This document shows, piece after piece, positions 8,611 to 37,614 of a stretch of DNA of 37,614 nt (position 1 is the first letter of the stretch; each line of letters begins with the position of its first letter). The stretch spans positions 1-37,614 of the IMG/VR virus record IMGVR_UViG_3300045141_000116, one strand, 5' to 3'. Both the position numbers and the translations under genes were made by a program. The notes under the pieces were generated by a model. The model ran no database searches. It saw only the letters and a list, made by a program, of their open reading frames with translations, and was not told where the DNA came from. The DNA is from a virus.

Positions 8611-8650
8611 ATCGCCGCTAGGCGCCGTCACGTGCCGCTATTTGCCAACA
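8611..8650 (-). repeat. Decamer array A (4 x 10 bp)
   Basis: On the minus strand there are four contiguous decamers: TGTTGGCAAA, TAGCGGCACG, TGACGGCGCC, TAGCGGCGAT. GGC sits at positions 5-7 of each. The array ends 83 bp before the first codon of the leftward accessory operon and forms the left arm of the attP-like region. Confidence 0.85.
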
Positions 8651-8733
8651 CCCGCAAAAAAAAGGGAAATTTACAGTGGAAAGTCACAAACAAGGCCAAG
8701 AGCGAGCATTGGCGCGGGCTGCAGCTCGATTGG

Positions 8734-8760: not shown

Positions 8761-8800
8761 TCCCGGCAGGTAGCGGCGAGTGACTGCATATAGCGGCAAT
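8761..8800 (+). repeat. Decamer array B (4 x 10 bp)
   Basis: Contiguous decamers: TCCCGGCAGG, TAGCGGCGAG, TGACTGCATA, TAGCGGCAAT. The third has TGC in place of GGC. The array is flanked by CTAGG on both sides (8756-8760 and 8804-8808). It lies inside the attP-like region, oriented toward the integrase. Confidence 0.85.
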
Positions 8801-8810
8801 TCCCTAGGTG

Positions 8811-8823
8811 AATCAATGACTTA
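8811..8823 (+). promoter_or_regulatory. IHF-binding site
   Basis: AATCAATGACTTA matches WATCAANNNNTTR at every defined base. It lies 10 bp after array B and 11 bp before array C, so IHF bending would bring the two arrays together as in known intasomes. Confidence 0.65.
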
Positions 8824-8834
8824 GCCTCACCATC

Positions 8835-8874
8835 ATACGGCATGTGGCGGCGCTTGACGGCGCATAGCGGCGGG
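8835..8874 (+). repeat. Decamer array C (4 x 10 bp)
   Basis: Contiguous decamers: ATACGGCATG, TGGCGGCGCT, TGACGGCGCA, TAGCGGCGGG. It ends 67 bp before the integrase start and points toward it. It contains a -35-like TTGACG, so a bound protein could also control the integrase promoter. Confidence 0.85.
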
Positions 8875-8941
8875 GGATTTACAGGGCGGTTTGCAGGGTT
8901 CAGGATTGAGGCCTCATCAACGCCACACGAAGGGCAACACC

Positions 8942-10270
8942 ATGACCAAGCGCCACGCCATCCGCGACGAACGCACCATCCGTGCACTGACCGTCGACAC
9001 GAAGGCAACCCAGCTGACCGACGGCGAAGGCCTGTACCTGAAACTGCGCTGGAAGACGGGCCAGCTCCACAGCTGGAATTTCGACTTCCGTTCCCCGGTC
9101 ACCGGCAAGCGCAACACCATCACCATTGGCGACTTCCCGCACATCGGTCTCAAGGCCGCCCGCGATGACGCCGAACGCATGCGCGGCATGGTTGCCCGCG
9201 GCGAGTGCCCCGCGGCCGCCCGCGATGCTGGCAAGGAAGCCACCCAGGCCGCCCAGACGCGCGCAAAGCGCATCGCGCTGGGTCTGCCCGTCGCCGGCAC
9301 CTTCAAGGCCGTAGCGCACGATTTCCGCGCCCTGAAGTGGCAAGAGACACCGACCGGCGGTTTCAAAAACCAATGGTCCGATGTGCACGCCACGAAGTGG
9401 CTGCGCGTGCTGAAGGATCACGTGTTCCCTGAGCTGGGTGACCGGATGTGCGCCGACCTGACGGCGCAAGACTTCCTGCGCGTCCTGGCGGTGCTCGATG
9501 CCAAGGGCATGGCCGAAACCGGCGTGAACGCCCGGACCTACTCGAAGCAGGTCATGGATTACGCAGTGGTCATGGACATCTGCAAGGGCAACCCTGTCGG
9601 CTCGCTGCGCGTGGTGCTGAAGCCGCGCGGCGTGCGGTCGCACTACGCTTCCTGCACCACGCCGGCTGATGTCGCCGAGCTGCTGCACACGATCGATGCC
9701 GCGGGCCTGAAGCCGCTCATGCGCGATTGCATCCTGATGCACGCGCTGACGTGGCAGCGCCCGGGCAACGTGCGCGCGATGCGCTGGGATGAGATCAACT
9801 TCGATGCGCGCACCTGGGTCATCCCGTCCGCCAAGATGAAGCGCCGCATTGACGAGAAAGAGCACGGCGCGGACCACGTCGTGCCGCTGCCCCGCCAAGC
9901 AATGGACATCCTGGCGCGCCTGAAGGCCACCAGCGAGGGCGACTACGTGTTCCCGGTGCGCTCGGGTGCCGACGCCGATTTCGTGACGCAGGGGGCCGTT
10001 TCCAAGCTCCTGGCGCGCATCGGGTTCGGCGGCAAGATGACGGCGCATGGTTTCCGCGCGATGGCGCGCACGCTGTTGGACGAGGTCCACGGCATTGACT
10101 CGCGGGTGTTGGAAGCCCACTTGGCTCACAGCAATGGCGAACAGCTCGGGAAGAGCTACGCGCGGGCAACGTACCTTGATCGTCGGGTGGTCGCCGCCCA
10201 GACCTGGGCGGACTACTTGGATGACCTGCGCAACGGGGCGCAGGTCATCCAGCTCAAGCAAGCGGCCTAG
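8942..10270 (+). CDS. int: Tyrosine-recombinase integrase (P4-like)
   Basis: The 442-aa protein starts at the ATG at 8942, after a GAAGGG site. Residues 1-~95 are the DUF4102-type arm-binding domain (LTDGEGLYLKL, W45, the TIGDFP segment, a KAARDDAE helix). The core-binding domain spans ~118-225. The catalytic domain from ~235 shows R273 (WQRPGNV), a Lys region near 298-300, H369-G-F-R372, H393 in LEAHLAH, and the probable nucleophile Y406 (KSYARATY). It catalyses site-specific integration and excision at attP, which lies directly upstream. Its stop overlaps the stop of the convergent AlpA-like gene by two bases, a compact int/xis pair. Confidence 0.95.
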   Translation: MTKRHAIRDERTIRALTVDTKATQLTDGEGLYLKLRWKTGQLHSWNFDFRSPVTGKRNTITIGDFPHIGLKAARDDAERMRGMVARGECPAAARDAGKEATQAAQTRAKRIALGLPVAGTFKAVAHDFRALKWQETPTGGFKNQWSDVHATKWLRVLKDHVFPELGDRMCADLTAQDFLRVLAVLDAKGMAETGVNARTYSKQVMDYAVVMDICKGNPVGSLRVVLKPRGVRSHYASCTTPADVAELLHTIDAAGLKPLMRDCILMHALTWQRPGNVRAMRWDEINFDARTWVIPSAKMKRRIDEKEHGADHVVPLPRQAMDILARLKATSEGDYVFPVRSGADADFVTQGAVSKLLARIGFGGKMTAHGFRAMARTLLDEVHGIDSRVLEAHLAHSNGEQLGKSYARATYLDRRVVAAQTWADYLDDLRNGAQVIQLKQAA

Positions 10271-10503
10271 ATGTGTGCGGGCTGGCTTTCGGCCAGCCAC
10301 GCATGCACCGCTTCGGCTCGCCACCGGACCATTCGGCGGGAGCGATAAGCAGGGGACGGAAACGTCCCCTTTTTCACGCGGTCGCGAATGGTCCGCGGCG
10401 CAAGCCCGACGAGTGCGCACACGACATCAACTGTGAGCAATGCATCGGGGACATTCGCAGCCTCAATGGGCTGTTTGTAGTGGTTGCCATCTGGCGTTTT
10501 CAC
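10267..10503 (-). CDS. AlpA/excisionase-like winged-helix protein
   Basis: The 78-aa protein has a GTG start with an AAAGG ribosome site. Residues ~22-70 match the AlpA/MerR-like excisionase fold: LLTVDVVCALVGLAPRTIRDRVKKG is the helix-turn-helix region, a short wing follows (FPSPAYRSRRMVRW), then the EAVHAWL helix. AlpA-type and Xis-type proteins bind tandem direct repeats, bend DNA, direct excision and regulate integrase genes. It is the last gene of the leftward operon and meets the integrase tail to tail. I propose it as the protein that binds the decamer arrays; that link is inference. Confidence 0.8.
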   Translation of the reverse strand: MKTPDGNHYKQPIEAANVPDALLTVDVVCALVGLAPRTIRDRVKKGTFPSPAYRSRRMVRWRAEAVHAWLAESQPAHI

Positions 10504-13033: not shown

Positions 13034-13273
13034 TTAAACGATGATGCTGTGACCGCACCGTGCGCACTTCAGACCCGCCAGCGCCTCGCGCTTGCCGCTG
13101 TCGATCAACGCCACTGCCGCGCTGCTGATGGCCGGATCAAGCGCCATCGCAACTTCATCGCGGATCAGGTTGGCGAGCGTTCCGACCGGGTCGTTCTCAT
13201 CGAAATCCACCCAGCCGACCACGCAGGCTTCAATGACGGCCGCGCGCCATGGGTTCGGGTCCGCGTCACTCAT
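13034..13273 (-). CDS. Hypothetical early protein with C-terminal CxxC
   Basis: The 79-aa protein is mostly helical and acidic and ends in LKCARCGHSIIV, a half zinc-ribbon. The start overlaps the upstream stop by 8 bases. No family is recognised. Confidence 0.6.
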   Translation of the reverse strand: MSDADPNPWRAAVIEACVVGWVDFDENDPVGTLANLIRDEVAMALDPAISSAAVALIDSGKREALAGLKCARCGHSIIV

Positions 13274-18317: not shown

Positions 18318-18484
18318 GTGCACCACCACACCGAACGAACCCAGCGCTTGAAGCGCATCCACCGGGTCACGGTGTAGGCGTGCGGGCGCACCTTGCCCGA
18401 GCTGGTGAGGGCATCGCGGTGCTTGCGGCGGAACGGCCCTTCGAAGGCGTTCCCGGTGCGCAGCCGGGTGAACCAGTCACGCAT
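18314..18484 (-). CDS. Small basic early protein
   Basis: The 56-aa protein starts at MRDWFTRL, inside the end of the upstream gene, and ends in an ATGA overlap with the exonuclease. It is strongly basic with several aromatic residues (YTVTRWMRFKRWVRSVWW). Tight coupling on both sides supports a real gene; the basic charge suggests nucleic-acid binding. Function is unknown. Confidence 0.55.
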   Translation of the reverse strand: MRDWFTRLRTGNAFEGPFRRKHRDALTSSGKVRPHAYTVTRWMRFKRWVRSVWWCT

Positions 18485-18854
18485 CGCTGCCATCCTGTTC
18501 TGCCGTGTCTTCGGCGTGGAACTGGGCATGCTGGTGGGCCATGCACATCAGCAGCGCGTTTGCCGGCAGGCGGGTCGCCGGGTCCTCGCCTTCAGCACAG
18601 GTCACGATCAGCGAAACGATTCGGTCAAGCAGGTGCAGCTCATCACGGCCGCAGAACATGTCCGAAACCACGTCGACCAATCGCATACGTTTGTCGGGAA
18701 AACCTGGGGTGCGAATCTCGGAAAGCGGGTTCGCAAACGCGGCGGTGATGAACTCCGATCGCAGCTCCCGATACGCTGCACGAATCAGGTCTTCGCGGGC
18801 GTCGATGTGCGATTGCATTCGGAGGGCTTCAAGGGTGGTTTGTGCGGGCTGCAT
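18477..18854 (-). CDS. Hypothetical first gene of leftward early operon
   Basis: The 125-aa helical protein has AYRELRSEFITAAF near residues 27-40, LVDVVSDMFC and LLDRIVSLIVTCAEGED, and an acidic tail. It is the first gene after the putative leftward promoter and decamer array D (86 bp upstream). First genes of such operons are often regulators or antiterminators, but no motif here supports either. Confidence 0.65.
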   Translation of the reverse strand: MQPAQTTLEALRMQSHIDAREDLIRAAYRELRSEFITAAFANPLSEIRTPGFPDKRMRLVDVVSDMFCGRDELHLLDRIVSLIVTCAEGEDPATRLPANALLMCMAHQHAQFHAEDTAEQDGSDA

Positions 18855-18940: not shown

Positions 18941-18980
18941 GCCGCCGCCACGCGCCGCTAAGCGCCGCAAACTGCCTTAC
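18941..18980 (-). repeat. Decamer array D (4 x 10 bp)
   Basis: On the minus strand: GTAAGGCAGT, TTGCGGCGCT, TAGCGGCGCG, TGGCGGCGGC. It ends 86 bp before the first gene of the leftward operon and points into it. It lies in the 179-bp gap between that operon and the rightward gene at 19034. Confidence 0.8.
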
Positions 18981-19033: not shown

Positions 19034-19543
19034 ATGGTCACGGATCACGGAGCGCGCTGGCTGGTGAACCGCCGCGCGGTGCAGGCAGAGCTGCAGGGCG
19101 ACACCTTGTGTGTGAACGTGCGTGGGCGGATCACGCCCTGGCGCCTGCGCATCATCGCGGCGGCGGTGACGCGGGCGATGGAGCCACACGACTGCGGCGC
19201 GGTGATGGTCAGCGTGATCACCGCCCAACTGGACATGGACCCTGAGGCCCTGGCGTGGCTGTGGGCGCGCCCTGATGCCTACCCGCTGGCGGCGCGGTTC
19301 GTAGGCGTGCTGTTCGATACGCGGCGCGGCCGCACGAAGTGGCTACTGCGATCGGCGGCGAACCTGCTTGCGAGCAGGTTCCCGGGTCATCTGCTTGAGC
19401 TTTTCGACATGGGCAACTTCAAAGCAGCGGCGCACTGGGCGGACCGTCATGCAGTGCTGTTCCGGCAGGTGCAGGCAGAGAAGGAAGCACGGGCCGTTCA
19501 CCGCGGCAAATCAGCGTCAACACCACGTAGGCGTAGGACCTGA
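19034..19543 (+). CDS. Hypothetical protein near immunity region
   Basis: The 169-aa protein has an alternating strand/helix pattern in its first ~120 residues (TLCVNVRGRITPWRLRIIAAAV; GAVMVSVITAQLDMDPEAL; ARFVGVLFDT) that loosely resembles a STAS-like domain, and a basic tail (STPRRRRT). It is convergent with the repressor and overlaps it by 125 bp, so the two transcripts would collide or pair. No ribosome site is clear. It could be a lysogen-expressed gene; function is unknown. Confidence 0.55.
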   Translation: MVTDHGARWLVNRRAVQAELQGDTLCVNVRGRITPWRLRIIAAAVTRAMEPHDCGAVMVSVITAQLDMDPEALAWLWARPDAYPLAARFVGVLFDTRRGRTKWLLRSAANLLASRFPGHLLELFDMGNFKAAAHWADRHAVLFRQVQAEKEARAVHRGKSASTPRRRRT

Positions 19544-19832
19544 CTTCAGGCTCCAGTGCCTCAAGGCGCTTCGCGCATTCAAGGGTAAGCCCGGAGAATT
19601 CCTGCGGCTTGTGCTCGGGCACGTAGTGCCCACCCTCGCCGGTGCACAGCCAGAACACATCGGCGCCCAGGTAGCGCGCGGCACGCGCGACGTTCTCGGG
19701 CTTGAGGTTCTTCAGCGGCGAGCGCTCAAGGCTCGCAATGGCTTGTCGGGAAATCCCTATAGCTTGCGCAAGGTTTGTGCGTGATTTCCCTGCGTGCTCT
19801 AGGGCTATATCGATCCGTTCGATCAGGTTCAT
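19419..19832 (-). CDS. XRE-family repressor (CI-like, short)
   Basis: The 137-aa protein has an XRE helix-turn-helix at ~10-45: ALEHAGKSRTNLAQAIGISR then QAIASLERSP, with a typical post-HTH segment (LKPENVARAARYLG). The C-terminal half (CTGEGGHYVPEHKP and the ECAKRLEALE helix) has no LexA/CI peptidase motif and is too short for one, so induction cannot be by RecA-stimulated self-cleavage. It diverges from the Cro-like gene. Its first codon abuts array E. The SD is weak, so a leaderless transcript is possible. It is the likely lysogeny repressor. Confidence 0.8.
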   Translation of the reverse strand: MNLIERIDIALEHAGKSRTNLAQAIGISRQAIASLERSPLKNLKPENVARAARYLGADVFWLCTGEGGHYVPEHKPQEFSGLTLECAKRLEALEPEVRSYAYVVLTLICRGERPVLPSLPAPAGTALHDGPPSAPLL

Positions 19833-19833
19833 G

Positions 19834-19873
19834 AGGTGGCACTTTCAGGCATGTAGCGGCAGCTAGCGGCATG
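19834..19873 (+). repeat. Decamer array E (4 x 10 bp)
   Basis: AGGTGGCACT, TTCAGGCATG, TAGCGGCAGC, TAGCGGCATG. It fills the space between repressor and cro from one base after the repressor start codon and points toward cro. A protein bound here would block or alter repressor transcription. Confidence 0.8.
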
Positions 19874-19936: not shown

Positions 19937-20155
19937 ATGAAAAAACAAACAGCCCTCCAATTGCTCGGCGGCACCGAGCTGAGCGCAGCCCAGGCCCTCG
20001 GTTGCAGCCGACAGAACGTCAACAGGTGGCCCGACGACCTGCCACGCAGGATCGCTGACCGCGTCATTGCGGCTCGGGTGCGCAAGGAATGGTCCGACTC
20101 TCTGCAGGGTGGGACTGTGAACGTGCCCGCCCTCATCGCCGACGCCATCGCCTGA
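19937..20155 (+). CDS. Cro-like regulator
   Basis: The 72-aa protein has residues ~5-45 that form a Cro/YdaS-type helix-turn-helix: LLGGTELSAAQALGCSRQNVNRW, followed by LPRRIADRVIAARV. It lies divergent to the repressor at the start of the rightward operon, the standard place for Cro. It should repress the repressor promoter and tune early transcription. Confidence 0.8.
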   Translation: MKKQTALQLLGGTELSAAQALGCSRQNVNRWPDDLPRRIADRVIAARVRKEWSDSLQGGTVNVPALIADAIA

Positions 20156-25614: not shown

Positions 25615-25947
25615 ATGAATGACACGCCCGCGCCGCGCAAGAAGCATGGCGGGCGCAAGCCTGGGACGCCGAACAAGAGCACCCAGGAAGTCAAGGCCAA
25701 GATCCTGGCCGCCCTCGACATGGTCGGCGGTGAAAAGTACCTTGCCCAGGTCGCGCGCACGCACCCCGCCGCATTCATCGCGCTTGTCGGCAAGGTCCTG
25801 CCGATGCAGGTCCGCGCGGACATCACCGATTTCACCTACGTGATTCAGCGCCTCGAAGTGAGCGCGCAGCCGGTGCCGGGCGTGATCAGCAATGGCCTTC
25901 CTCAGGCGCCGCGCCTCCTGGCGCCGAAGGTGGCGAACGATGGCTGA
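25615..25947 (+). CDS. terS: Terminase small subunit
   Basis: The 110-aa protein starts at the ATG at 25615; in-frame starts further upstream would place the terminator hairpin inside the gene. KKHGGRKPGTPNKSTQEVKA near the N-terminus and AALDMVGGEKYLAQVARTHP are typical of the small-terminase/DUF5681-like proteins that precede large terminases. It recognises the packaging site. It overlaps the large subunit by 8 bases. Confidence 0.8.
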   Translation: MNDTPAPRKKHGGRKPGTPNKSTQEVKAKILAALDMVGGEKYLAQVARTHPAAFIALVGKVLPMQVRADITDFTYVIQRLEVSAQPVPGVISNGLPQAPRLLAPKVANDG

Positions 25948-27292
25948 GCTTGTCATCGATGGCGGCATGCAGCCGCGTCACTACCAACTGCCGTACATGG
26001 TCGCCATGGATGGTGGCTGCAAGTTCGCGGTCTGGGTGATGCATCGGCGCGGCGGCAAAGACCGCACCGCGCTGGCCCAGGCCTGCAAGATGGCGTTCGT
26101 TCGGCCCGGCCTCTACTGGCACTGCCTGCCGACGCTGAAGCAGGGCCGCAAGGTGGTGTGGGACAACATCACCAGCGAAGGCAAAAACCTGATCCGGCAG
26201 ACCTTCCCGGACCACCTTGTGCGCCGTCGTCTCGAAGACGAAATGAAGGTGGAGCTGATCAATGGCGCGATCGTGCAAATCGTCGGCGCCGACAACTTCA
26301 ATGCGCTGGTGGGCGCCTCGCCGGTGCATGTGACCTTCTCCGAATGGTCCCTCACCGATCCGCGCGCCTACGACTTCGTGCGCCCGATCCTGCGCGAGAA
26401 CAACGGATCGGTGTCGTTCATCTACACGCCGCGCGGCTACAACCATGGTTGGACCACGCTCAACATCGCGCGCAAGCTGCCGGGCGCTTTCGTCGCGGTG
26501 ATGTCGATCAAGGACACCGGTGTCCTGAGCGAAGCTGACATGCAGCTTGAGCTGGCGCAGGGCATGGCGGAGGAGCTGATTGCCCAGGAGTATTTCTGCG
26601 ACTTCAGCAGCGCGAACGTGGGCGCGATCGTGGGCCGGCAAATCTCCCAGGCTGAACGCGACGGCCGCATCAACGAAGACACCACGCATTCGCCGGGCTC
26701 GCGCATCGTCGTCAGCTCTGACATCGGCTACCGCGATCAATCGGCGTGGTGGTTCTGGCAGCTGCGCCTCGGCGGTTTCGACCTCATCCGCTACATCGAA
26801 GGTTCGGGCCTCGATGCGGATGACTGGATCGAAAAACTGAAGAACTGCGGCACCCCGATTGATCACATCTACCTGCCGCACGATGCGCGCGCCAAGACCA
26901 TGGCGACGAAGCACACCGTCATTGAGCGCTTCGCCCAGGCCTTTCAATGCAGCATCGTCCCGCGCACCAAGCTGTCCGATCGGATCAACGCCGCGCGCGC
27001 GGTGATCCCGCGATGCAACTTCGCAATCAACGACTGCAGCCGGGGGCTTGAGGCCCTGCGCGCGTGGTCGTTCCGCTTCGATGACGAACGCAAGATTTTC
27101 AGCGCTGAGCCTGAACACGATTGGTCGTCGCACGGCGCCGATGCATTCAGCTACGGCGCGCAGATGGTGCAAGAGCTGGTGAAGGACACCGGCGGCGCCC
27201 GCAAAGAAAAGCCCGACTACATGGGCACGCATTACCCGATGACTCTTGACGAGCTTTTCGCCGACGCAGCTGCCCTGCGCCTCGACAACTAG
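25940..27292 (+). CDS. terL: Terminase large subunit
   Basis: The 450-aa protein starts at MAELVIDGG. ATPase: a degenerate Walker A HRRGGKD (35-41) and Walker B VTFSEW (131-136) with catalytic E135. Nuclease: SSDIGYRD (D260), LPHDARAK (D314) and the SSHGADAFSYG segment (H397, D400). It pumps DNA into the procapsid and cuts the concatemer, docked on the portal encoded next. The type (headful or site-specific cutting) cannot be told from sequence alone; the missing fixed ends favour headful. Confidence 0.93.
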   Translation: MAELVIDGGMQPRHYQLPYMVAMDGGCKFAVWVMHRRGGKDRTALAQACKMAFVRPGLYWHCLPTLKQGRKVVWDNITSEGKNLIRQTFPDHLVRRRLEDEMKVELINGAIVQIVGADNFNALVGASPVHVTFSEWSLTDPRAYDFVRPILRENNGSVSFIYTPRGYNHGWTTLNIARKLPGAFVAVMSIKDTGVLSEADMQLELAQGMAEELIAQEYFCDFSSANVGAIVGRQISQAERDGRINEDTTHSPGSRIVVSSDIGYRDQSAWWFWQLRLGGFDLIRYIEGSGLDADDWIEKLKNCGTPIDHIYLPHDARAKTMATKHTVIERFAQAFQCSIVPRTKLSDRINAARAVIPRCNFAINDCSRGLEALRAWSFRFDDERKIFSAEPEHDWSSHGADAFSYGAQMVQELVKDTGGARKEKPDYMGTHYPMTLDELFADAAALRLDN

Positions 27293-27300
27293 GGGCACGC

Positions 27301-29421
27301 ATGGAATACCTCGCGACCGACACCACAGCAGCTGACGAACGCCCGGAAGAAGCGTCCGACACCGCGCGCAAAGACCCGCTCACCGCGAGCGCGGAGAAGG
27401 CACGCAAGTGGCAAACCGAACTCGATGCTTCAAAGCGTTGGATGGAAAAATTCTGCGCCCAGGCGCGGCGCTGCGAAGCGGCCTACATGGGCAGTGCGAC
27501 CAACGGCGACAGCAGTGGGTCCGACCCGCTGAACCGCGATCAACGCGGGAAGGTCAATCTCTTTTGGTCGAATGTGCAGGTCATCTTGTCGGCCATTTAC
27601 GGCCGACTGCCGCAGGCCGAAGTGGATCGCAAGTTCGGCGACTTCACCGATGACGTGTCGCGCGTGGCCGGCATCATCATGCAGCGCATCTTGAATGGCG
27701 ACATTGAGCGCGAGCACGACGACACCAACGCCGCGATGCGCGACGCCGTGCAGGACCGATTCATTGTCGGGCTCGGGCAGGTGTGGTGCCGCTATGAAGT
27801 CGAGACCGAGGAAGTCGACCAGCCGGTGCGAAACCCGCTGACGGGTCAGCCGATGATCGACCCTACGACCGGTCAGCCGATCACCACCAAGACCGAAAAA
27901 ATCATCAACGAGGAAGCCCCCGTTGATTACGTCCACTGGGAGGACTTCCGCTACAGCCCCTGCCGCCGGTGGCGTGAAGCGCGCTGGGTCGCGCGCCGCG
28001 TCTACATGAACGAAAAGCAGCTCCGCAAGCGCTTCAAGCTGACGCCTGTTCAGCTCGGAATGATCCCGATGCGCGCCAGCGCAATGGACGCAAGCGACCG
28101 CAGCGAGAGCACCAGCGTTTTGCGCGCCACGCCGTTCAAACAGGCGGGCGTGTGGGAGCTGTGGGACAAGGAAGAAAACTACGTCTGTTGGTACGTGGAA
28201 GGCTGCAGTTTCATCCTTGACGAAGTGCAAGACCCGCTGCAGCTCGATGACTTCTTCCCGTGCCCGCAGCCGGTCGTCGCGACCACGCTGACCAACGCGT
28301 TCCGCCCGCGCGCTGACTACTCGATGGCGCAGGACCTGTATCGCGAACTCGACCGCATCAATGCGCGCATCGCGAGCATCACGCGCGCCGTCAAGGTCGC
28401 AGGGGTCTACGACAAGACCGCAGGCCCGCTGAAGTCGCTGCTGACGACGGCCGTCGAAAACGCGCTGGTGCCTGCTGACAATTGGTCGACGTTCGTCGAG
28501 AAAGGCGGCATGAAAGGCGTCATCGATTGGATGCCCATTGAACAGTACGTCAACGCCCTGATGCAGCTGGTTCAGCGCAAAGGCCAGATTGAACGCGACC
28601 TGTACGAAGTGCTGGGCATCTCCGACATCATGCGCGGCACGTCAGCACCGAGTGAGACCCTCGGCGCGCAGCAGCTGAAAGCGCAGTATGGCGGCGCGCG
28701 CCTGGGCAACCTGCAGAACGAAGTCGCGCGTTTCGTGTCGGCCACGATGCGCATCCGCGCGAACATCATCAGCAACCATTTCCAGCCCGAAACGCTGATC
28801 AAGCGCAGCTTGATCGAACGCACGCCTGACGCCCAGCTCGCGCAGCCGGCAGTGCAGCTGCTGAAGGACTTCGGCACCGCGCTCTACTCCATCACCGTCA
28901 CCGCCGACACCCTGGCCGCGCCGGACTGGGCCGCGGAGAAGGAAGCGCGCACCGAGTTCATGGGCGCGACTTCGAACTACCTGATGGCCGCGGGGCCGAT
29001 GGTGCAGCAGAGCCCGGAAATCGGAGCGTTCCTGCTCAAGCTGCTGCAGTGGGGCGCCGCGGGCTTCAAGGGCTCGAAGACCATCGAAGGCGTTCTGGAC
29101 CAAGCTGCGCGCGCGCTGGAACAGCAAGCGCAGCAGCCGAAGCCGCCGGCACCGCCGACGCCGGAAGACCGGAAGGACGATGCGGCCGCGGTGAAGTCGC
29201 AGGCCGATGCCGAGCGCTCGAAGGCCGAAGCGCAGCGCACCACGATCGAAACCGCGATCTTGGCGCGCGGCACCGGCATGCCATACCCGATGCCGGGCCA
29301 GCTCGGCGCGCCGCCGCAAGGCATGCAGCCGCCGCAGATGCCGCAACCCCCGCAGCTGCCACCGCAGCCGCAAGCGCCGCAAATGCCCCAGGTGCCCGGC
29401 AATCCGATGGGAGGTGCGTGA
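27301..29421 (+). CDS. Portal protein
   Basis: The 706-aa protein has a portal core at ~75-520. VNLFWSNVQVILSAIYGRLPQAEVDRK marks the N-terminal part, VDYVHWEDFRYSPCRRWREARWVARR the clip/stem part, and IERDLYEVLGISDIMRG with ETLGAQQLKAQYGGARLG the stem helix. This pattern is seen in podovirus portals of P22-like size. The C-terminal ~90 residues are a Pro/Gln/Met-rich tail. A dodecameric ring at one vertex serves packaging and ejection. Confidence 0.9.
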   Translation: MEYLATDTTAADERPEEASDTARKDPLTASAEKARKWQTELDASKRWMEKFCAQARRCEAAYMGSATNGDSSGSDPLNRDQRGKVNLFWSNVQVILSAIYGRLPQAEVDRKFGDFTDDVSRVAGIIMQRILNGDIEREHDDTNAAMRDAVQDRFIVGLGQVWCRYEVETEEVDQPVRNPLTGQPMIDPTTGQPITTKTEKIINEEAPVDYVHWEDFRYSPCRRWREARWVARRVYMNEKQLRKRFKLTPVQLGMIPMRASAMDASDRSESTSVLRATPFKQAGVWELWDKEENYVCWYVEGCSFILDEVQDPLQLDDFFPCPQPVVATTLTNAFRPRADYSMAQDLYRELDRINARIASITRAVKVAGVYDKTAGPLKSLLTTAVENALVPADNWSTFVEKGGMKGVIDWMPIEQYVNALMQLVQRKGQIERDLYEVLGISDIMRGTSAPSETLGAQQLKAQYGGARLGNLQNEVARFVSATMRIRANIISNHFQPETLIKRSLIERTPDAQLAQPAVQLLKDFGTALYSITVTADTLAAPDWAAEKEARTEFMGATSNYLMAAGPMVQQSPEIGAFLLKLLQWGAAGFKGSKTIEGVLDQAARALEQQAQQPKPPAPPTPEDRKDDAAAVKSQADAERSKAEAQRTTIETAILARGTGMPYPMPGQLGAPPQGMQPPQMPQPPQLPPQPQAPQMPQVPGNPMGGA

Positions 29422-29422
29422 C

Positions 29423-29641
29423 ATGGCAACTACCGCCGAAATCGATGCAGCAATCGTCCTGCTGCGTTCCGCCCGTCTCTTGCTCGCCCAGGTCGGTGAC
29501 CAGCGTGCGCGCGCCGTCCTGGCGCGTGACGCGGCAACCGCCAACGTGCTGGACCTCAATGGAAAGCTGACCGCCGCGCGCGACGCGGTGACGGCTGCGA
29601 AAACCGCGCTGACGGCGCTGCTGCAACAACCGGAGACCTGA
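29423..29641 (+). CDS. Small coiled-coil protein
   Basis: The 72-aa protein is almost wholly one alpha-helical heptad pattern (LLRSARLLLAQVGDQRARAV; LNGKLTAARDAVTAAKTAL). It lies between portal and the zinc-ribbon protein. Not recognised; small coiled-coil proteins here are often assembly aids. Confidence 0.65.
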   Translation: MATTAEIDAAIVLLRSARLLLAQVGDQRARAVLARDAATANVLDLNGKLTAARDAVTAAKTALTALLQQPET

Positions 29642-29643
29642 CG

Positions 29644-30033
29644 ATGCCGACCTACTCATTCCGGTGCGCCGCGTGCGAGGAAGTCACCGATGCAGTGATG
29701 TCGATTGCGACTTACATCGCAAACCCGCCGACCTTCGTGCACTGCGGGCAGCGCATGGAACGCTTCTTTCAGGTCGCGGGCGGTTCTGCGATCGGCAACG
29801 CCCTGGCCGGCGATCGGCATTACGACGGGCTCACCGCAACCGATGGAACCGACATCAGCACCCGCGCCAAGCATCGGGCGTACATGAAGGCCAAGGGCCT
29901 GACCACCGTCGACGACTTTTCAGGGACGTGGAAGAAGCAAGCGCAAGAGCGCGAAGCGCGCATGGCCGGCGCGGACTCGACGCGAAAGGCCGACATCGCT
30001 GCAGCAATTCAGCAGCACCGGCAGCGCCGGTGA
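29644..30033 (+). CDS. FmdB-like zinc-ribbon protein
   Basis: The 129-aa protein begins MPTYSFRCAACEE (C8, C11) with a second half-site HCGQ (C34) that lacks the usual fourth Cys. Phage proteins of this type lie between portal and scaffold in many podoviruses. The rest is polar and helical, with RAKHRAYMKAKGLTTVDDF. Role unknown. Confidence 0.75.
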   Translation: MPTYSFRCAACEEVTDAVMSIATYIANPPTFVHCGQRMERFFQVAGGSAIGNALAGDRHYDGLTATDGTDISTRAKHRAYMKAKGLTTVDDFSGTWKKQAQEREARMAGADSTRKADIAAAIQQHRQRR

Positions 30034-30050
30034 TGTTCCACGGGAAACGA

Positions 30051-30090
30051 TAACGGCCCATAGCGGCAATTAAAGGCGAGTAGAGGCGGG
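30051..30090 (+). repeat. Decamer array F (4 x 10 bp)
   Basis: TAACGGCCCA, TAGCGGCAAT, TAAAGGCGAG, TAGAGGCGGG. It sits in the 79-bp gap inside the late operon, ends 22 bp before the scaffold start and points toward it. It is the only array far from the immunity and attP regions. Confidence 0.8.
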
Positions 30091-30112
30091 AAACCTCAAA
30101 CACGCACAGACC

Positions 30113-31213
30113 ATGGCAACCGAAAACACTGCACTCGACACCAGCACCGAAGAACCCGACAACCTGCGGGAGACCCTCGAAGCCGCGTACCGTCAACACG
30201 CGACGGATGAGAAGGACACGCCCGCGCCGACGACCGCACCGGCGGCCGCCGAGCCCGCGCCCGCGCCGGCCGAGGGTGACGGCCGCGTGCGCGATGCGTC
30301 CGGCCGGTTCGCACCGAAGACCGGCGACGCCCCCGCGCAAGCCCCTGCAGCCGCGCAGGCGCCCGCAACGGGCGACGGACAGGCCTTCACCCCTGCACCG
30401 CCGCCGCCCGAGCTGAAAGCGCCCGCATCGTGGACGCCCCAGGCGCGCGAGCGCTGGGCCAATCTCGACCCCGAGGTGCGCGCCGAAGTGCATCGCCGCG
30501 AGGGCGAGCTGCAGACGGTGCTGCAGCGCTCGGCGAGCGCTCGGCAGTTCACCGAGGCATTCGAGAACGTCATGCGGCCCTACGAAGTGTTCATCCGTCA
30601 GGAGAACAGCAACCCGCTTCAGGCCGTGCAAAACATGATGCAGACGGCCGCAACCATGCGGGTTGGAACTGCGCAACAGAAGGCCGAAACGGTCGCCGGA
30701 ATCATCCGCAATTTCGGCGTCGACATCGAACAGCTTGACTCGCTCCTGGCCGGTCAATTGCCGCCGCAAGGATCGCAGCGCCAACAGGAGTTTCGCGACC
30801 CACGTTTCGATCAATTCTTGGCCGCGCAACAGGCCATGATTCAGCACAACGAATCGCGGCAAATGCAGAGCATCCAACAGGAGGTGCAAGCCTTCGCAAG
30901 CTCGCATGAGTTTTACAGCGATGTTCAGCCAATCATGGCAGACCTGATGTCAATTCGCGCAAAGCAAGGGCAGGCATTGGACCTTGAAGGTGCCTACAAA
31001 TTGGCCTGCGGAATGCACGAAGGCGTTGCAGCGACTATTGCGCAACGCGCCGCGTCGTCGCAGAATGCGGGCCAATCGCAAGCGGTACTGCGAGCGAAGC
31101 GAGCTGCAGCAAGCGTCAAAGGTGATCCGACCCCGCACACCGGGGCCACGGTGCCGAAGGACGACTCAGTTCGCTCAAGCATCGAAGCCGCGATTCAGCA
31201 GCTGCGCGAGTAG
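30113..31213 (+). CDS. Capsid scaffold protein
   Basis: The 366-aa protein has an acidic, Ala/Pro-rich N-terminal ~110 residues. A helical core follows (WTPQARERWANLDPEVRAEVHRRE and RQFTEAFENVMRPYEVFIRQ near residues 105-165), then Gln-rich helices and a basic C-terminus around RAKRAAASVKGD. This is the composition and place of scaffolding proteins that template the procapsid and leave before packaging. The start lacks a clear SD and follows array F. Confidence 0.8.
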   Translation: MATENTALDTSTEEPDNLRETLEAAYRQHATDEKDTPAPTTAPAAAEPAPAPAEGDGRVRDASGRFAPKTGDAPAQAPAAAQAPATGDGQAFTPAPPPPELKAPASWTPQARERWANLDPEVRAEVHRREGELQTVLQRSASARQFTEAFENVMRPYEVFIRQENSNPLQAVQNMMQTAATMRVGTAQQKAETVAGIIRNFGVDIEQLDSLLAGQLPPQGSQRQQEFRDPRFDQFLAAQQAMIQHNESRQMQSIQQEVQAFASSHEFYSDVQPIMADLMSIRAKQGQALDLEGAYKLACGMHEGVAATIAQRAASSQNAGQSQAVLRAKRAAASVKGDPTPHTGATVPKDDSVRSSIEAAIQQLRE

Positions 31214-31332
31214 CTGCAGCCCCGAAAGCCCCCGAGGTCCTTTCGGTTTGCAAGCGCCATTAGACCGGCGCGGATGAACCCGCAAGGGCCATCACCAACA
31301 GGTCGCAAACCGTTGACTGAAAGGGGCCTAAC
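31214..31332. other. Gap between scaffold and capsid genes
   Basis: 119 bases with no gene seen. A hairpin CCGAAAG/CTTTCGG (about 31222-31246) lacks a T-tract, so it is more likely an mRNA processing or stability element than a terminator. Confidence 0.5.
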
Positions 31333-32298
31333 GTGGCATTCCCAAACGTGACTGACATCGTCGCAACGACGATTGAAAACCGTTCGCGCAAGCTCGCGGA
31401 CAACGTGACGAAGAACAATGCGCTGCTGATGCGCATGAACCAGCGCGGCAACATCCGGACCGTCTCCGGTGGCTCGCTGATCTTCGAAGAACTGACCTTC
31501 GCCGAAAACGGCAACGTGGGTTGGTACTCGGGTTACGACCTGCTGCCCGTCGCGGCACAGGACGTGATCAGCTCGGCGCAATTCGACTTCAAGCAGGCGG
31601 CCTGCCCGGTCATCATCAGCGGGCTCGATGAGCTGCGCAACAGCGGCGAACAGGCGTTCATTGACCTGCTTGAGGGTCGCGTGAAGGTCGCCGAGTCGTC
31701 CATGATGAACCTGCTTGCGCAGGGCATCTACAGCGACGGCACGGCCGCCGGTGGCAAGCAGGTGACCGGCCTGAATGCCGCAGTCCCGGTGAACCCGGCG
31801 ACGGGCGTCTATGGCGGCATCGACCGCGCCACCTGGACGTTCTGGCGTTCGAAGACCACCACGGCAGGCGTCGCGCTCACCGCGCTGACGATTCAAGCCG
31901 CGTTCAACAACATGTGGGCTTCGCTGGTTCGCGGCATGGACCGCCCGGACCTGATCATCGTGGACAACTTCATGTGGGCGACCTACATGGCGTCGCTGCA
32001 AGCGCAGCAGCGTTTCACGAATCCGAGCACCGGCAATCTGGGCTTCCCGTCGATCCAGTACATGGATGCAGACGTGGTGCTTGACGGCGGCATCGGGGGC
32101 TTCGCGGTGACGAACACCGCGTATTTCTTGAACACCAAGTACCTGTTCTGGCGTCCGCATTCGGCCCGGAATCTGGTGCCTCTGAGCCCGAATCGCCGGT
32201 ATGCGATCAACCAGGATGCAGAGGTCCAAATCCTGGCATGGGCTGGCAATTTGACTGCCAGCGGGACGCAATTCCAAGGGCGTCTGATCTCGCCGTAA
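31333..32298 (+). CDS. Major capsid protein
   Basis: The 321-aa protein has a GTG start preceded by AAAGGGG. MAFPNVTDIVATTIENRSRKLADNV, then GGSLIFEELTFAENG near 46-60 and DVISSAQFDFKQAACPVIISG are typical of HK97-fold capsid proteins of podoviruses with a small head. The C-terminal part has LIIVDNFMWATYMAS and FWRPHSARNL. It is preceded by scaffold and followed by a terminator-like hairpin, so it could be the most abundant late product. Confidence 0.9.
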   Translation: MAFPNVTDIVATTIENRSRKLADNVTKNNALLMRMNQRGNIRTVSGGSLIFEELTFAENGNVGWYSGYDLLPVAAQDVISSAQFDFKQAACPVIISGLDELRNSGEQAFIDLLEGRVKVAESSMMNLLAQGIYSDGTAAGGKQVTGLNAAVPVNPATGVYGGIDRATWTFWRSKTTTAGVALTALTIQAAFNNMWASLVRGMDRPDLIIVDNFMWATYMASLQAQQRFTNPSTGNLGFPSIQYMDADVVLDGGIGGFAVTNTAYFLNTKYLFWRPHSARNLVPLSPNRRYAINQDAEVQILAWAGNLTASGTQFQGRLISP

Positions 32299-32345
32299 AG
32301 GGGCAATTGGCCGAGGGCAGCTCGGTCTTTTGCGGTTGCCATCTT

Positions 32346-32376
32346 CCCCGGGGTGCAAACACATCCCGGGGCCTTT
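32346..32376 (+). terminator. Terminator-like hairpin after capsid gene
   Basis: CCCCGGG and CCCGGGG arms with a 12-base loop, then CCTTTTC. It could reduce downstream expression relative to the capsid gene. Confidence 0.55.
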
Positions 32377-32389
32377 TCAAGGAAGCGCA

Positions 32390-32569
32390 ATGCCGAAGCA
32401 ACCCGTCAACGTCCCCGACCCGGAACCCGAAGTGGGGCCGCCCGCCGATCCGGTGAGCGGCCCCGATGTCGTTTCAACCGAGGCCCCCACGGAGCCACTG
32501 CCCGAGGGCTATCGCAGCGCAATGGATGACCCCGCGCATCCGCTGCACCACCTGCGCAACGCAATTTGA
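32390..32569 (+). CDS. Small Pro-rich protein after capsid
   Basis: The 59-aa protein starts with a GGAAG site upstream. It is acidic and Pro-rich (PVNVPDPEPEVGPPADP), ending in AHPLHHLRNAI. Not recognised. Confidence 0.55.
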   Translation: MPKQPVNVPDPEPEVGPPADPVSGPDVVSTEAPTEPLPEGYRSAMDDPAHPLHHLRNAI

Positions 32570-32579
32570 GGATTCATCC

Positions 32580-33230
32580 ATGCCCGCAACCTTCGCACTC
32601 GATGGCGCCCTAGCGGCCCGTCAGGGCGGCAACGACACCGGCGCGGCATGCACCGGCATCGGGACTGCCTCCAATCAATCCGGCGTGCCGGTGCCGCAAA
32701 ACTTCACCGTCACTGCCGCCGACTTCGTCGCGCAGCACATCGGCGGCGGCGCGCTCGCCACGTCCGCCGGCAACACCGGCAACATCATTCAAGAGCCGAT
32801 CGCCATCACGGCGGGCAGTGGCTACACGAACGGGACCTACCGCGTGCAGTCGAATGCCTCGGGTGGTCAAGGCGCAGGCGCTGGTGAGATCGAATTCACC
32901 ATTGCCGGCGGCGCCGTCACCGCGGCGCGCGTGGTGCGCCCTGGCTCGGGCTTCACGTCCGCGCCGACCTTCACCGTTGCCAATGCCATCAACACCAACG
33001 GCACCGGCGCAGGTCCTGGCGGCGGCACGCTGGGCGCGCTGGTGGTCACGGTTGGTCTTGGCTCGCGCGCAAACATGCTCGGCGCGGCCTTCGGCGTCGA
33101 CAAGGGCACGCAGCGGCTGCAGGCGGTGGGCGCCGTCGCAATCAATGCGGCCGTCACGCCCTCCACCTATCTGAATCGTTCGGGCCGCGCGTTGGTCGCG
33201 GGCGATCAGACCTGGGCAGTCGCGCCCTAA
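32580..33230 (+). CDS. Head decoration-like structural protein
   Basis: The 216-aa protein is rich in Gly, Ala, Thr and Val with repeated beta turns (AITAGSGYTNGTYRV; GGAVTAARVVRPGSGFTS). This composition is typical of capsid decoration or short fibre proteins that follow the capsid gene. No chaperone or enzyme motif is seen. The call rests on composition and position. Confidence 0.6.
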   Translation: MPATFALDGALAARQGGNDTGAACTGIGTASNQSGVPVPQNFTVTAADFVAQHIGGGALATSAGNTGNIIQEPIAITAGSGYTNGTYRVQSNASGGQGAGAGEIEFTIAGGAVTAARVVRPGSGFTSAPTFTVANAINTNGTGAGPGGGTLGALVVTVGLGSRANMLGAAFGVDKGTQRLQAVGAVAINAAVTPSTYLNRSGRALVAGDQTWAVAP

Positions 33231-33250
33231 ACCACAACAAGGAAACGCAA

Positions 33251-33835
33251 ATGGCAACCTACGAATACGACCACAACCAATTCAATCTGCAACGCCCTGA
33301 CCTGGGCGACGAAAAGCTGGTGGCCTTCTTCTACATGGGAGTCCTGCAAAACGAGACTCGCACCACGGAAGAAGGTCGCCCGATTTTCGATGACGTTGAA
33401 TGCATCAAGATCATCGTTCCGGGCGACAAGAACAACGTCATTGATCGACCGGCGACGAAGCAAGACAAGCTGCGCTTTGCGAAGCAGTACGCGGCATTCA
33501 AGGAAGGCCACGCCGAAGAGGCGCAAGTGGGCGGCACGCCGCTGACTGAGTGGCCCTTCCTGTCGCGCGCCCAGGTGGAGGAGCTGAAATATCTCGGCAT
33601 CCGCACCGTCGAGAACATCGCCGAATGTCGCGACGACATCACCAGCCGCGTGCCGGGCATGGTGAGTCTGAAGCGCAATGCGCAGGTGTGGCTCGGCAAG
33701 AGCAAGAGCGCTGCCGAAGCCGCGAAGACCACGAAGCTCATCGAAGACCAAGCCGCGCAGATTGCCGCGCTGCAAGAGGCAGTGCGCGACCAGGGCAAGC
33801 GACTCGCTGACGCGACGATGAGCGCGAAGGCCTGA
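33251..33835 (+). CDS. Conserved structural-operon protein
   Basis: The 194-aa protein has residues ~1-60 that are beta-like, then RFAKQYAAFKEG and GTPLTEWPFLSRAQVEELKYLGIRTVENIAE, a helix-hairpin-helix-like segment, and a C-terminal coiled coil (IEDQAAQIAALQEAVRDQGKRLA). Similar proteins are common between capsid and tail-adaptor genes of podoviruses, function unknown. Confidence 0.65.
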   Translation: MATYEYDHNQFNLQRPDLGDEKLVAFFYMGVLQNETRTTEEGRPIFDDVECIKIIVPGDKNNVIDRPATKQDKLRFAKQYAAFKEGHAEEAQVGGTPLTEWPFLSRAQVEELKYLGIRTVENIAECRDDITSRVPGMVSLKRNAQVWLGKSKSAAEAAKTTKLIEDQAAQIAALQEAVRDQGKRLADATMSAKA

Positions 33836-33848
33836 GCGAGGGGCGAGC

Positions 33849-34595
33849 GTGGCGAATTTCAACAAGTTTCAGACGGGACTCGCGATCGTCCAGAACGCGT
33901 GCGGCATCCTGGGTTTGCCGGTCCCGATTGCAGCTGTTGGGAACCCGACCGATGTCAACGCACGGCAGATGATTGCCATGCTGAATTACATCGGGCGGCG
34001 CCTCGTCAAGCCCACTGCCGGCTACCGCTGGCAGGTGCTGACGCGCACCTTCCAGCTCGTCACGAATCTTGTTGACACGCTCTACCCGCTGCCGGCCGAC
34101 TGGGATTCATTCGAAGACCTGACCGGCTGGAACTTCAGCAGCCGGCTTCCGATGCTCGGCCCGGCGACCGATCCGCAATGGCAGACCCTCAAGGCTCGCA
34201 ATCTCGGGTCGTCGACCATCAGCGTGATTTACCGGACGCGCGGGAATCAGTTCGAGATTTACAACACCTTCCCGACTCCGCAAGACCTGCGCATTGAGTA
34301 CAGCTCGCGCGGCTGGGTGCAAGACGCGACCGTCCCGGCAACGCGGAAAGACTTCGTCGAGAACGACGGCGATCTCGTCCTGTTCGATTCGGACCTGATG
34401 ATTGCCGCGCTGAAGCTGCATTTCCTGACGATGAAGGGCTTCGACACGACGGCAGCGCAGGCGGACTACAACCAAGCGGAGGAAGCCGCGATCTGTGCGG
34501 ACACGGATGCACCCGTGCTCACGCTGACCACTGGCGACACGTACCCGCTGATCAGCACGCAATTCAACGTGCCTGATACCGGCTTCGGGAGCTGA
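33849..34595 (+). CDS. Head-tail adaptor (P22 gp4-like)
   Basis: The 248-aa protein has a GTG start. Helical N-terminal ~60 residues (QMIAMLNYIGRRLVKPTAGYRWQVL), then FQLVTNLVDTLYPLPADWDSFEDLTGW and a beta-rich middle, then DGDLVLFDSDLMIAALKLHFL. The LPADW segment and overall order are typical of podovirus neck/adaptor proteins that bind below the portal. No lysozyme motif was seen. Confidence 0.75.
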   Translation: MANFNKFQTGLAIVQNACGILGLPVPIAAVGNPTDVNARQMIAMLNYIGRRLVKPTAGYRWQVLTRTFQLVTNLVDTLYPLPADWDSFEDLTGWNFSSRLPMLGPATDPQWQTLKARNLGSSTISVIYRTRGNQFEIYNTFPTPQDLRIEYSSRGWVQDATVPATRKDFVENDGDLVLFDSDLMIAALKLHFLTMKGFDTTAAQADYNQAEEAAICADTDAPVLTLTTGDTYPLISTQFNVPDTGFGS

Positions 34596-34598
34596 CGC

Positions 34599-36275
34599 AT
34601 GCCGTCCCCCGTGCTGAGTCGCCCTTCGCGGGTGCGCGCGCCGCAGCTGATGACGCAGGCCGTGCAAACGGCGCTGCCGCCGGTGCGCGGCCTGAACTCG
34701 ACCGGCGCGGCCGCATCGATGCCGGAGACCGACGCGCTCGAAATGGACAACTTCATTTCGCAGGACCTCGGGCTGACCGTGCGCGAAGGTTGGTATGAGT
34801 ACGCGACCAACATTGGCGGCGATGCACTGAGCGAAATCCGCACCGTCATGCCGTACAACGGCGCGCCCGGCACGTCGCTGAGCAATCCGCTTGCGGACTC
34901 GATCCTGTTCGCCGCGATCGACAAAGGCATTTACAACATTGAAGGCGGCGGCAACCTCATCGCGCTTGCGCCGGCCATCGCCCTGAGTGCCGCGAGTGGC
35001 GCGGGCTTCATGAGCTACGCGCAGTTCACCACCGATGCCGGGCAGTTCCTTGTCGCATGCAGCGAGACGGACGGCGCGTTCTTCTACAACGGCGCGGCGT
35101 GGATGAAGGCAACCAGCGTCGGCGGCCCTGGCCCCGGCATCATCACCGGCGTTGACCCGTCGACCTTCGTGCAGGTGTGCGTCTGGAAAAAGCGCCTCCT
35201 GTTCATGACGCGCGAATCCGGGAAGATGTGGTTTCTGTCGGTCGGCGCCGTGGGTGGTGTCGCCCAGGCCTTCGACTTCGGGCCGCAGCTCATCAACGGC
35301 GGCGCGGTGGTGGGTCTCGCGAACTGGACGCAGGACGACGGCGCGGGTGTCGACGACCGGCTGTGCATCATCGGCAGCGGCGGTGACCTCGTCATCTACG
35401 AAGGCACCGACCCGGGCGACGCGACCAAGTTCAGCGCAATCGGTACGTGGTTCATCGGGCAACCGCCAGTCGGGCGCCGGAGCTTCACCACGGGCGGCGG
35501 TAACGTCTACGTGCTGACGACGATCGGTGTAGTGCCGGTGAATCAGGTCGTGCAAGGCGGCCTAGACAACCTGCTTACCTCGGACACGGCATTGCTGTCG
35601 CAGCTGCGCAAGCTGCAAAGCCAGCTCAACACCGATTTCTCATCGCTGATCAATACGACCGGCTGGGAAATGCTGACCGTTCCAACGAAGGCGATGCTGA
35701 TCATTGCGCGGCCCTCGGCCAGCGTGTCGGAGCACATTCAATACGCCTTCCAACAGCATCAGCTGGCGTGGTCGCGGCTGTTGGACATCCCTGCGGTGAC
35801 GATCTCGCGGCGCCTCAACGAGGTCTACGGGGGTACTGCTGACTCCCGCGTGATTCGCTACCTCGATGGCTTCACCGACGCCCAGAAGATCGACGGCACG
35901 GGCGCCGTCGAAGTGCGCGCGCGACTCACGCCGGCCTTCAGCTACTTCGGCAATCCGGGCGTCCAAAAGATGGCCCAGATGATCCGGTGCAACTTCCTCG
36001 CGACGAAGGCACCGGCCTATGCGGTGCGCATGAACGTGGACTTTTCCATCAGTGGCGTCGGCGCCACCGGCGTGCCGAGTTTCTCGGTCGGCTCGCTGTG
36101 GGACAGCGCGTTCTGGGACGCCGGCATCTGGGCCGGCGGTGTCGGGAGCTTCGGCGAATGGCGCGCAGTGGAAGGCATGGGCTATTCGCTGTCGCCGTCG
36201 ATCTTCGTCAGCAGCACCACGCGCACCGTTCTGGCGTCGATTGAGTACATGAACAACGGCGGAGGTCCACTGTGA
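34599..36275 (+). CDS. Tail hub / DNA-stabilisation protein (P22 gp10-like)
   Basis: The 558-aa protein is mostly beta with WD-like turns (LPPVRGLNSTGAAASMPETDALEMDNF; GLTVREGWYEYATN; KKRLLFMTRESGKMWFLSV; GWEMLTVPTKAMLIIARP). These are usual in podovirus tail hub proteins that seal the packaged DNA and hold the tailspikes or fibres. It follows the adaptor with a 3-base gap and ends in a GTGA overlap with the next gene. Confidence 0.8.
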   Translation: MPSPVLSRPSRVRAPQLMTQAVQTALPPVRGLNSTGAAASMPETDALEMDNFISQDLGLTVREGWYEYATNIGGDALSEIRTVMPYNGAPGTSLSNPLADSILFAAIDKGIYNIEGGGNLIALAPAIALSAASGAGFMSYAQFTTDAGQFLVACSETDGAFFYNGAAWMKATSVGGPGPGIITGVDPSTFVQVCVWKKRLLFMTRESGKMWFLSVGAVGGVAQAFDFGPQLINGGAVVGLANWTQDDGAGVDDRLCIIGSGGDLVIYEGTDPGDATKFSAIGTWFIGQPPVGRRSFTTGGGNVYVLTTIGVVPVNQVVQGGLDNLLTSDTALLSQLRKLQSQLNTDFSSLINTTGWEMLTVPTKAMLIIARPSASVSEHIQYAFQQHQLAWSRLLDIPAVTISRRLNEVYGGTADSRVIRYLDGFTDAQKIDGTGAVEVRARLTPAFSYFGNPGVQKMAQMIRCNFLATKAPAYAVRMNVDFSISGVGATGVPSFSVGSLWDSAFWDAGIWAGGVGSFGEWRAVEGMGYSLSPSIFVSSTTRTVLASIEYMNNGGGPL

Positions 36276-36709
36276 TTCAAACCAACGCCGCCCAGGTTGT
36301 TCACGCCTTCTTTGCGGACCGCCTCGGCCTGAAATGGTCTGAAGACTTCCGAGGCAACCTGTGGGTTCCTGAAGAGCACCGCGACCAGCCGGCGGACATG
36401 GATCACGTCGCGGTCGCCGTTGCCTACAACGCGTTCATTGGCCGCACGTGCTGCATGCACACGGTCATTCAGCGGCCCGACCTTGTGAGCCCGCGCGTCG
36501 TGCGCGACACCTTCGCTTTCCCCTTCGAAGTCTGCAACTGCGAAGCGGTGTTGGCGCTGGTCGACTCGACCAATGACGCGGCGCTGTCCTTCGATTCGAA
36601 ATTGGGCTTTCGCGAAATCGCGCGCATCCCGAACGGCGGCACTGACGGTGACCTCGTCGTCATGCAGATGACGCGCGCCGAATGCCGCTGGCTTCGCAAA
36701 CCGCACTGA
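36272..36709 (+). CDS. GNAT-like acetyltransferase-fold protein
   Basis: The 145-aa protein has a GTG start. The C-terminal half has LVDSTNDAALSFDSKLGFREIARIP and GDLVVMQMTRAECRWL, the usual C-terminal part of the GNAT fold. The N-terminal half is less clear, and the Q/RxxGxG/A acetyl-CoA loop was not seen, so it may be inactive. Such genes recur in tail cassettes of podoviruses. Confidence 0.65.
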   Translation: MIQTNAAQVVHAFFADRLGLKWSEDFRGNLWVPEEHRDQPADMDHVAVAVAYNAFIGRTCCMHTVIQRPDLVSPRVVRDTFAFPFEVCNCEAVLALVDSTNDAALSFDSKLGFREIARIPNGGTDGDLVVMQMTRAECRWLRKPH

Positions 36710-36718
36710 GGTCACACC

Positions 36719-37614
36719 ATGGGAAAGAAGAGCGGACCGCCCGCACCCGACTACGCTGCGACCGCGGCCGCGCAAGGCCAAGCGTCGCAAGAGAACCTGA
36801 CGCAACAGACCTGGGCGAACCGCCCCGATCAAACGTCGCCGTTCGGCAGCATCACGTGGGGCAGTCAAGACACCGTCGACCCGGCGACGGGCCAGAAGGT
36901 CACCAAGTGGACGCAGAACACATCGCTTGACCCGACCCTGCAGAACGCGCTGAACAGCCAGCTATCACTGCAGCAAGGCCGCAGCGACCTTGCGAATCAG
37001 CAGCTCGGCCAGCTGCAACAGACCTACTCGCAGCCGATGGACTGGAGCAATTTCGCTCCGCTGGCCGGCAACGTGTCGGGCCAGTACACGAACGCGACCA
37101 CGGGCAATAACGGCCTGAGCTTCCGCCCGCAGAACATCAACACGTCATTGCAGGGCCAGCCGCAGCTCAACACCAACGCGGGCGCGAACCAAGGGCAGAT
37201 TCAGAGCGGCCTGGACTTCGGCGGTGTGCAGAACGTCAGCAATGCGGCGGACACCCGCGCGCGCGCCGAACAGGCTGCATACGGGTCGCTGACCTCCCGC
37301 CTTGATCCGCAGTTCGCGAACCAGCAAAGCAGCCTTGAAAGCGACCTTGCAAACCGCGGCATCACGCGCGATAGCGCCGCGTACACGCGCGCCATGGATG
37401 ACTTCAATCGCTCGAAGACTGATGCCTACTCGCAGGCCTCGCTGAACGCCATCAACGTCGGCGGCAATGAAGCGCAGCGTGACTACGGCATGGACCTGGG
37501 CCTGCGTCAGCAGCAGGTGGGCGAGATCGGCCAGCAAGGGGCGTTCGCCAACACCGCGCAGAACCAGGGCTACGGGCAGAACCTGCAATCGATCGCGCAG
37601 AACAATCAAGCGCT
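36719..37614 (+). CDS. Q-rich virion protein with S74-type domain (5' part)
   Basis: This is the beginning of the 510-aa protein whose end is at 1-764; the reading frame is continuous across the join. MGKKSGPPAPDYAATAAAQGQ and WANRPDQTSPFGSITW form a conserved-looking N-terminus, followed by Gln/Asn-rich helices (LSLQQGRSDLANQQLGQLQQ). The remainder is described at the 3' part. Confidence 0.85.
   Translation, partial: MGKKSGPPAPDYAATAAAQGQASQENLTQQTWANRPDQTSPFGSITWGSQDTVDPATGQKVTKWTQNTSLDPTLQNALNSQLSLQQGRSDLANQQLGQLQQTYSQPMDWSNFAPLAGNVSGQYTNATTGNNGLSFRPQNINTSLQGQPQLNTNAGANQGQIQSGLDFGGVQNVSNAADTRARAEQAAYGSLTSRLDPQFANQQSSLESDLANRGITRDSAAYTRAMDDFNRSKTDAYSQASLNAINVGGNEAQRDYGMDLGLRQQQVGEIGQQGAFANTAQNQGYGQNLQSIAQNNQA
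37488..37614. repeat. Terminal direct repeat, right copy
   Basis: Identical to 1-127; overlap of the circular molecule. Confidence 0.95.

Follow-up and report, generated by a model that had tools for sequence, protein, structure and literature searches.

Excisionases moonlight as early regulators, and the locus considered here raises the question of what an array of short direct repeats, of a kind otherwise found at attP and in the early control regions, is doing in the late operon of a temperate phage. The window, i.e., the whole stretch of DNA that was analysed, spans the 37,614 bases of a virus record and belongs to a temperate phage with a Mx8/BUCT555-type head module, and the array in question, called array F, stands before the gene in the scaffold position. 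A tRNA search of the window found none, and a capsid relative, sought in genome contigs as a lead to the host, was not found there.

Array F consists of four head-to-tail 10-bp direct repeats with a period of exactly 10 and the core TANNGGC, and its 3′ end lies 22 nt from the ATG of the scaffold-position gene, as a preliminary description of this DNA had it (Table 1). The 79-nt gap that houses it is one of very few, as also claimed there: in the late operon (25892-36930), only two other gaps exceed 20 nt, namely the one filled by the RNA leader discussed below and a second at 32299-32465. With a loose unit score taken over three consecutive units, array F reaches 21; in the 30 dinucleotide-model shuffles that served as the control for the array scan, the maximum was 17 and none scored 18 or more. 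The array is confirmed as genuine, being absent from the shuffled windows.

Table 1. Coordinates of the features discussed in the text, numbered from the first base of the window
Feature	Position	Strand	Remarks
10-bp array	8611-8640	-	far left of putative attP
10-bp array	8761-8800	+	directly left of putative attP core
Putative attP core GAATCAATGACTTAGCC	8810-8826		similar sequence upstream of int in five relatives
10-bp array	8835-8874	+	right of putative attP core
Putative integrase arm-type repeats TTTACAGGG/TTTGCAGGG	8878-8898	+	12-bp spacing; third copy at 8670
Tyrosine integrase	8942-10270	+	phrog_1, E=5.8e-50
AlpA-like excisionase (RDF candidate)	10267-10503	-	78 aa, GTG start; convergent with integrase
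First early-left gene	18477-18854	-	
10-bp array	18941-18980	-	before first early-left gene
Repressor	19419-19832	-	
10-bp array	19844-19873	+	between repressor and cro-like gene
Cro-like gene	19937-20155	+	
Zinc-ribbon gene	29644-30033	+	small protein, head operon; PF09723 E=7.7e-6, below curated cut-off
Scaffold gap	30034-30112		houses array F
parS-like palindrome TGTTCCACGGGAAACG	30034-30049		13/16 to TGTTTCACGTGAAACA (parS consensus); directly upstream of array F
Array F	30051-30090	+	TAACGGCCCA TAGCGGCAAT TAAAGGCGAG TAGAGGCGGG; units start at 30051, 30061, 30071, 30081
Scaffold-position gene	30113-31213	+	366 aa; before major capsid gene; phrog_25516 E=0.012 (weak)
Structured RNA leader	31214-31332	+	119 nt; between scaffold-position and major capsid genes
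Major capsid gene	31333-32298	+	phrog_9953 E=5.6e-111

The motif of array F is common to five more arrays, three around the putative attP and two in the early control regions, at a distance of about 10 kb from array F, and on these positions our coordinates agree with the preliminary description. At att, and likewise in the early region that controls lysis and lysogeny, the units are repeated directly at intervals of about one helical turn, which is the arrangement of Apl- and Cox-type sites. Regarding the core itself, the form RATCAANNACTTA is common to the window and to the attP regions of five relatives (G003, G004, G005, G010, and G023), whose integrases are divergent. In the more distant relative L112, two copies of TGTTCCACGTGGAACA occur 54 bp apart, approximately 8.0-8.1 kb before its capsid gene.

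The candidate binder is encoded next to the tyrosine integrase, as a small wHTH/HTH_17 protein that matches PF12728 with 32.7 bits against a cut-off of 27, as well as phrog_66 (excisionase) and phrog_597. Its structure model has a mean pLDDT of 80, and the Foldseek matches in the PDB include RdfS (top), the GIsul2 excisionase, BldC-DNA, Pukovnik Xis, and TorI, with weak E-values (best 0.02), such as a protein of 78 residues would be expected to give. Homologs convergent with the integrase are found in G002, G003, G004, G005, and G010, the match in G003 being weak, and they vary along the recognition helix. Apl (PMC7498355) and BldC (PMC5859096) offer precedents for the direct-repeat binding mode. 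From the sequence evidence taken together, we infer that array F is very probably bound by this AlpA-like protein, a candidate RDF.

The integrase is a second candidate, given that 10-bp arrays stand on both sides of the putative attP core, like arm-type sites, and array F might then be a stray integrase site. However, a separate repeat with 12-bp spacing is present at attP in the window (8878/8890), in the relative G002 (12180/12192 and 12389/12401), and in the relative G005 (3392/3404), and this repeat appears to fit putative arm-type sites better than the 10-bp arrays do, which makes the integrase less likely as the binder. Moreover, arm-type sites are confined to attP, whereas copies of the 10-bp arrays also occur at the repressor/cro and early-left positions, so that the integrase reading is very improbable.

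The claim that one and the same protein acts at array F, at attP, and in the early control region can be examined in related phages, for which we used 80 loci with related capsid genes. A search of these 80 capsid relatives with the TAGCGGC motif found no second such array before the scaffold; a single weaker match, in L009, fell within the scaffold-position gene. This search looked negative, but the 10-bp repeats at the attP of relatives differ in sequence from those of the window, and a search of each phage with its own motif reversed the picture. For this purpose, each matrix was built only from the attP units of one phage and then scanned over the genome of that phage. In both G002 and G005, the motif taken from attP turns up again in the scaffold gap of the same phage, and this gap is the best match outside attP in G005 (19.2; next 14.3) and the third in G002 (17.4), behind the repressor/cro site (25.7) and the early-left site (20.3). 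G001, a fragment without an integrase, was tested with the motif borrowed from G004, and its scaffold gap is the top match for the G004 attP matrix. When matrices are tabulated against gaps, the diagonal reads 21.5 for the window (G000), 17.4 for G002, 19.2 for G005, and 13.8 for G001 with the G004 matrix, against off-diagonal scores of at most 10.5; the shuffled-gap p is at most 0.0004, and 0.0086 for G001. The attP units were at first chosen after the gaps had been viewed, and in a blind repeat, in which motifs were discovered from nothing but the attP region, the scaffold gap ranked first (G000), second (G002), and fourth (G005) genome-wide outside attP.

The early sites keep their places as well. 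In G002, the array at 644 stands between cro and the repressor, and the one at 2908 precedes the first early-left gene; the site of G005 at 13216 is found before the same early-left gene as in the window. In G004, the attP motif stands above shuffles, yet its own scaffold gap has no array; the attP motifs of G003, G010, and G023 are not above shuffles, which makes these three genomes uninformative rather than negative. In the phage collection, the scaffold-position gene follows its neighbour without a gap in BUCT555 and Mx8, and after a short one in ppBjS10J-1. Judged from these comparisons, the 10-bp arrays appear to be a small regulon of fixed positions and drifting sequence, which is the expected trace of a co-evolving phage-encoded binder, and the claim of a shared protein is well supported by the co-variation of the motifs.

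As to what the protein would do in the scaffold gap, AlpA monomers would line up head to tail, one per 10-bp unit and on one helix face, as Apl, Cox, Xis, and BldC do, and a single AlpA regulon would comprise attP (for excision), the repressor/cro region, the early-left operon, and the pre-scaffold gap. The gene order suggests that AlpA is expressed from the early-left operon, in which case array F would stand unoccupied in the lysogen and become bound once induction has taken place. The earlier proposal of silencing in the lysogen is for this reason doubtful, the early-left operon being repressed there. Early after induction, AlpA at the gap could repress, could stand in the way of read-through, or could, like Cox, activate a non-consensus promoter, and its occupancy would time shell production with respect to excision and replication. 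As to the internal promoter also proposed earlier, a scan of 29300-31400 found no sigma-70-like promoter, and one of the scaffold gap for sigma-70 promoters and terminators gave nothing above chance. On balance, we think it probable that transcription entering the scaffold and capsid genes changes when array F is occupied, repression being slightly more likely than activation, and we lean towards array F being an AlpA-like RDF binding array that sets the timing of shell production against that of excision and replication.

The lack of a visible promoter also fits a site that AlpA binds with no local regulation, i.e., an architectural, loop-forming, or titration site that sets the level of free AlpA or links the late region to attP. 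RDFs are known to bend DNA and to spread (PMC7498355), and a weak filament would be passable by late-operon read-through. However, a titration site needs no fixed place, whereas the array stands directly before the same scaffold-position gene in the window, G002, G005, and G001, and we regard such a role with no local regulation as unlikely.

The scaffold gap holds a second element, a palindrome that the stop codon of the zinc-ribbon gene abuts and that resembles the parS consensus with 3 mismatches in the window and 1-4 in the relatives, its position being strongly conserved. When up to 3 mismatches are allowed, the 16 non-duplicate members tested have exactly 16 sites, one in each genome, and all lie in the scaffold gap except that of G010 (L036), which is found one gene further upstream (-1648). 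A further 774 kb of other capsid relatives contained two more parS-like sites, both in near-duplicates of members. A role of the palindrome as a ribosome-binding element is ruled out by the upstream site of G010 and by conserved positions that are roughly symmetric.

These properties allow the gap to be read as a host-partition element, in which host ParB would occupy the parS-like palindrome and the AlpA array would serve as its boundary or competitor beside the scaffold. The single site per genome and the near-symmetry of its conserved positions agree with such an element, as does a search of nine phage genomes that found no ParB_N or HTH_ParB domain while its positive controls worked; in addition, excess ParB represses promoters beside parS3/parS4 in Pseudomonas aeruginosa (PMC5521831). 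On the other side, most sites carry 2-3 mismatches, exact parS 14-mers are common among the IMG/VR matches listed, probably at chance level, and the palindrome, which precedes the array in all four array-bearing phages, is present without an array in many other members. The host-partition reading is thus decidedly unlikely, and we are equally sceptical of a two-input switch, in which the parS-like site would recruit host ParB and an excisionase filament would block or displace it, so that shell production would open after the excision signal. If such a switch did exist, a host-centromere site would have been turned into a phage regulatory element, and the parS-like element in any case raises the separate question of whether phages use the host chromosome-partition protein.

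Among known systems, the best reading of the locus is a dual excisionase-regulator like Cox or Apl with an additional conserved site in the late operon. Apl of coliphage 186 is likewise an excisionase and regulator, and the direct repeats that it binds, at 10-11 bp or one-turn spacing, occur at att as well as in the early control region; the sites mapped for it are those of att and pR-pL (PMC7498355), whereas here an extra array lies in the late operon and the protein is of the HTH_17/AlpA type. P2 Cox and XisF4 of Pf4 are excisionases that repress a repressor gene and activate a phage replication gene, the initiator gene in the case of XisF4 (PMC7379572); unlike these targets, the site described here is fixed in the scaffold gap, with a motif that co-varies. 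RdfS of ICEMlSymR7A, the top structural match, is an oligomeric wHTH RDF that acts on attP and on distant promoters, but it has no clear consensus motif and governs conjugation (PMC11963761), whereas here the motif is clear and capsid genes are nearby. BldC is a MerR-like wHTH protein that binds 9-bp direct repeats head to tail as a filament and regulates promoters, although it is a cellular developmental regulator with no link to an integrase (PMC5859096). Finally, the palindrome beside array F resembles the sites of chromosomal ParB/parS systems, but it is known here from sequence and is located in a phage late operon with no phage ParB. Our literature search, with most subscription papers outside its reach, returned no report of an excisionase site before a scaffold gene or of parS in a phage late operon. 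If the preferred reading is true, the array before the scaffold-capsid genes ties the decision to exit the chromosome to virion assembly, and the co-variation of motifs between attP and distant sites may provide a general route to further excisionase targets in phages known only from metagenomes.

The scaffold label rests on the position of the gene before the major capsid gene and on a weak head-and-packaging match (phrog_25516); used as a query, this gene retrieved only three loci, with a 58% identical relative in L009/L102. The assignment of the major capsid gene is secure, its product being 69% identical to that of BUCT555 and 60-63% to those of Mx8/Mx9. Control of scaffold and capsid expression by array F, as put forward in the preliminary description, is plausible, and any decoupling of the two may lie partly at the capsid RNA leader, since the capsid gene has this conserved leader of its own. 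No Rfam family was above threshold at the scaffold gap or at the leader. In an alignment fitted to its own model, and hence favouring that model, the leader has 25 pairs, 18 of which are changed on both sides, and 0 of 500 shuffles scored as high. In relatives, the leader model picks out the corresponding stretch in front of the capsid gene, as it does, weakly, in Mx8.
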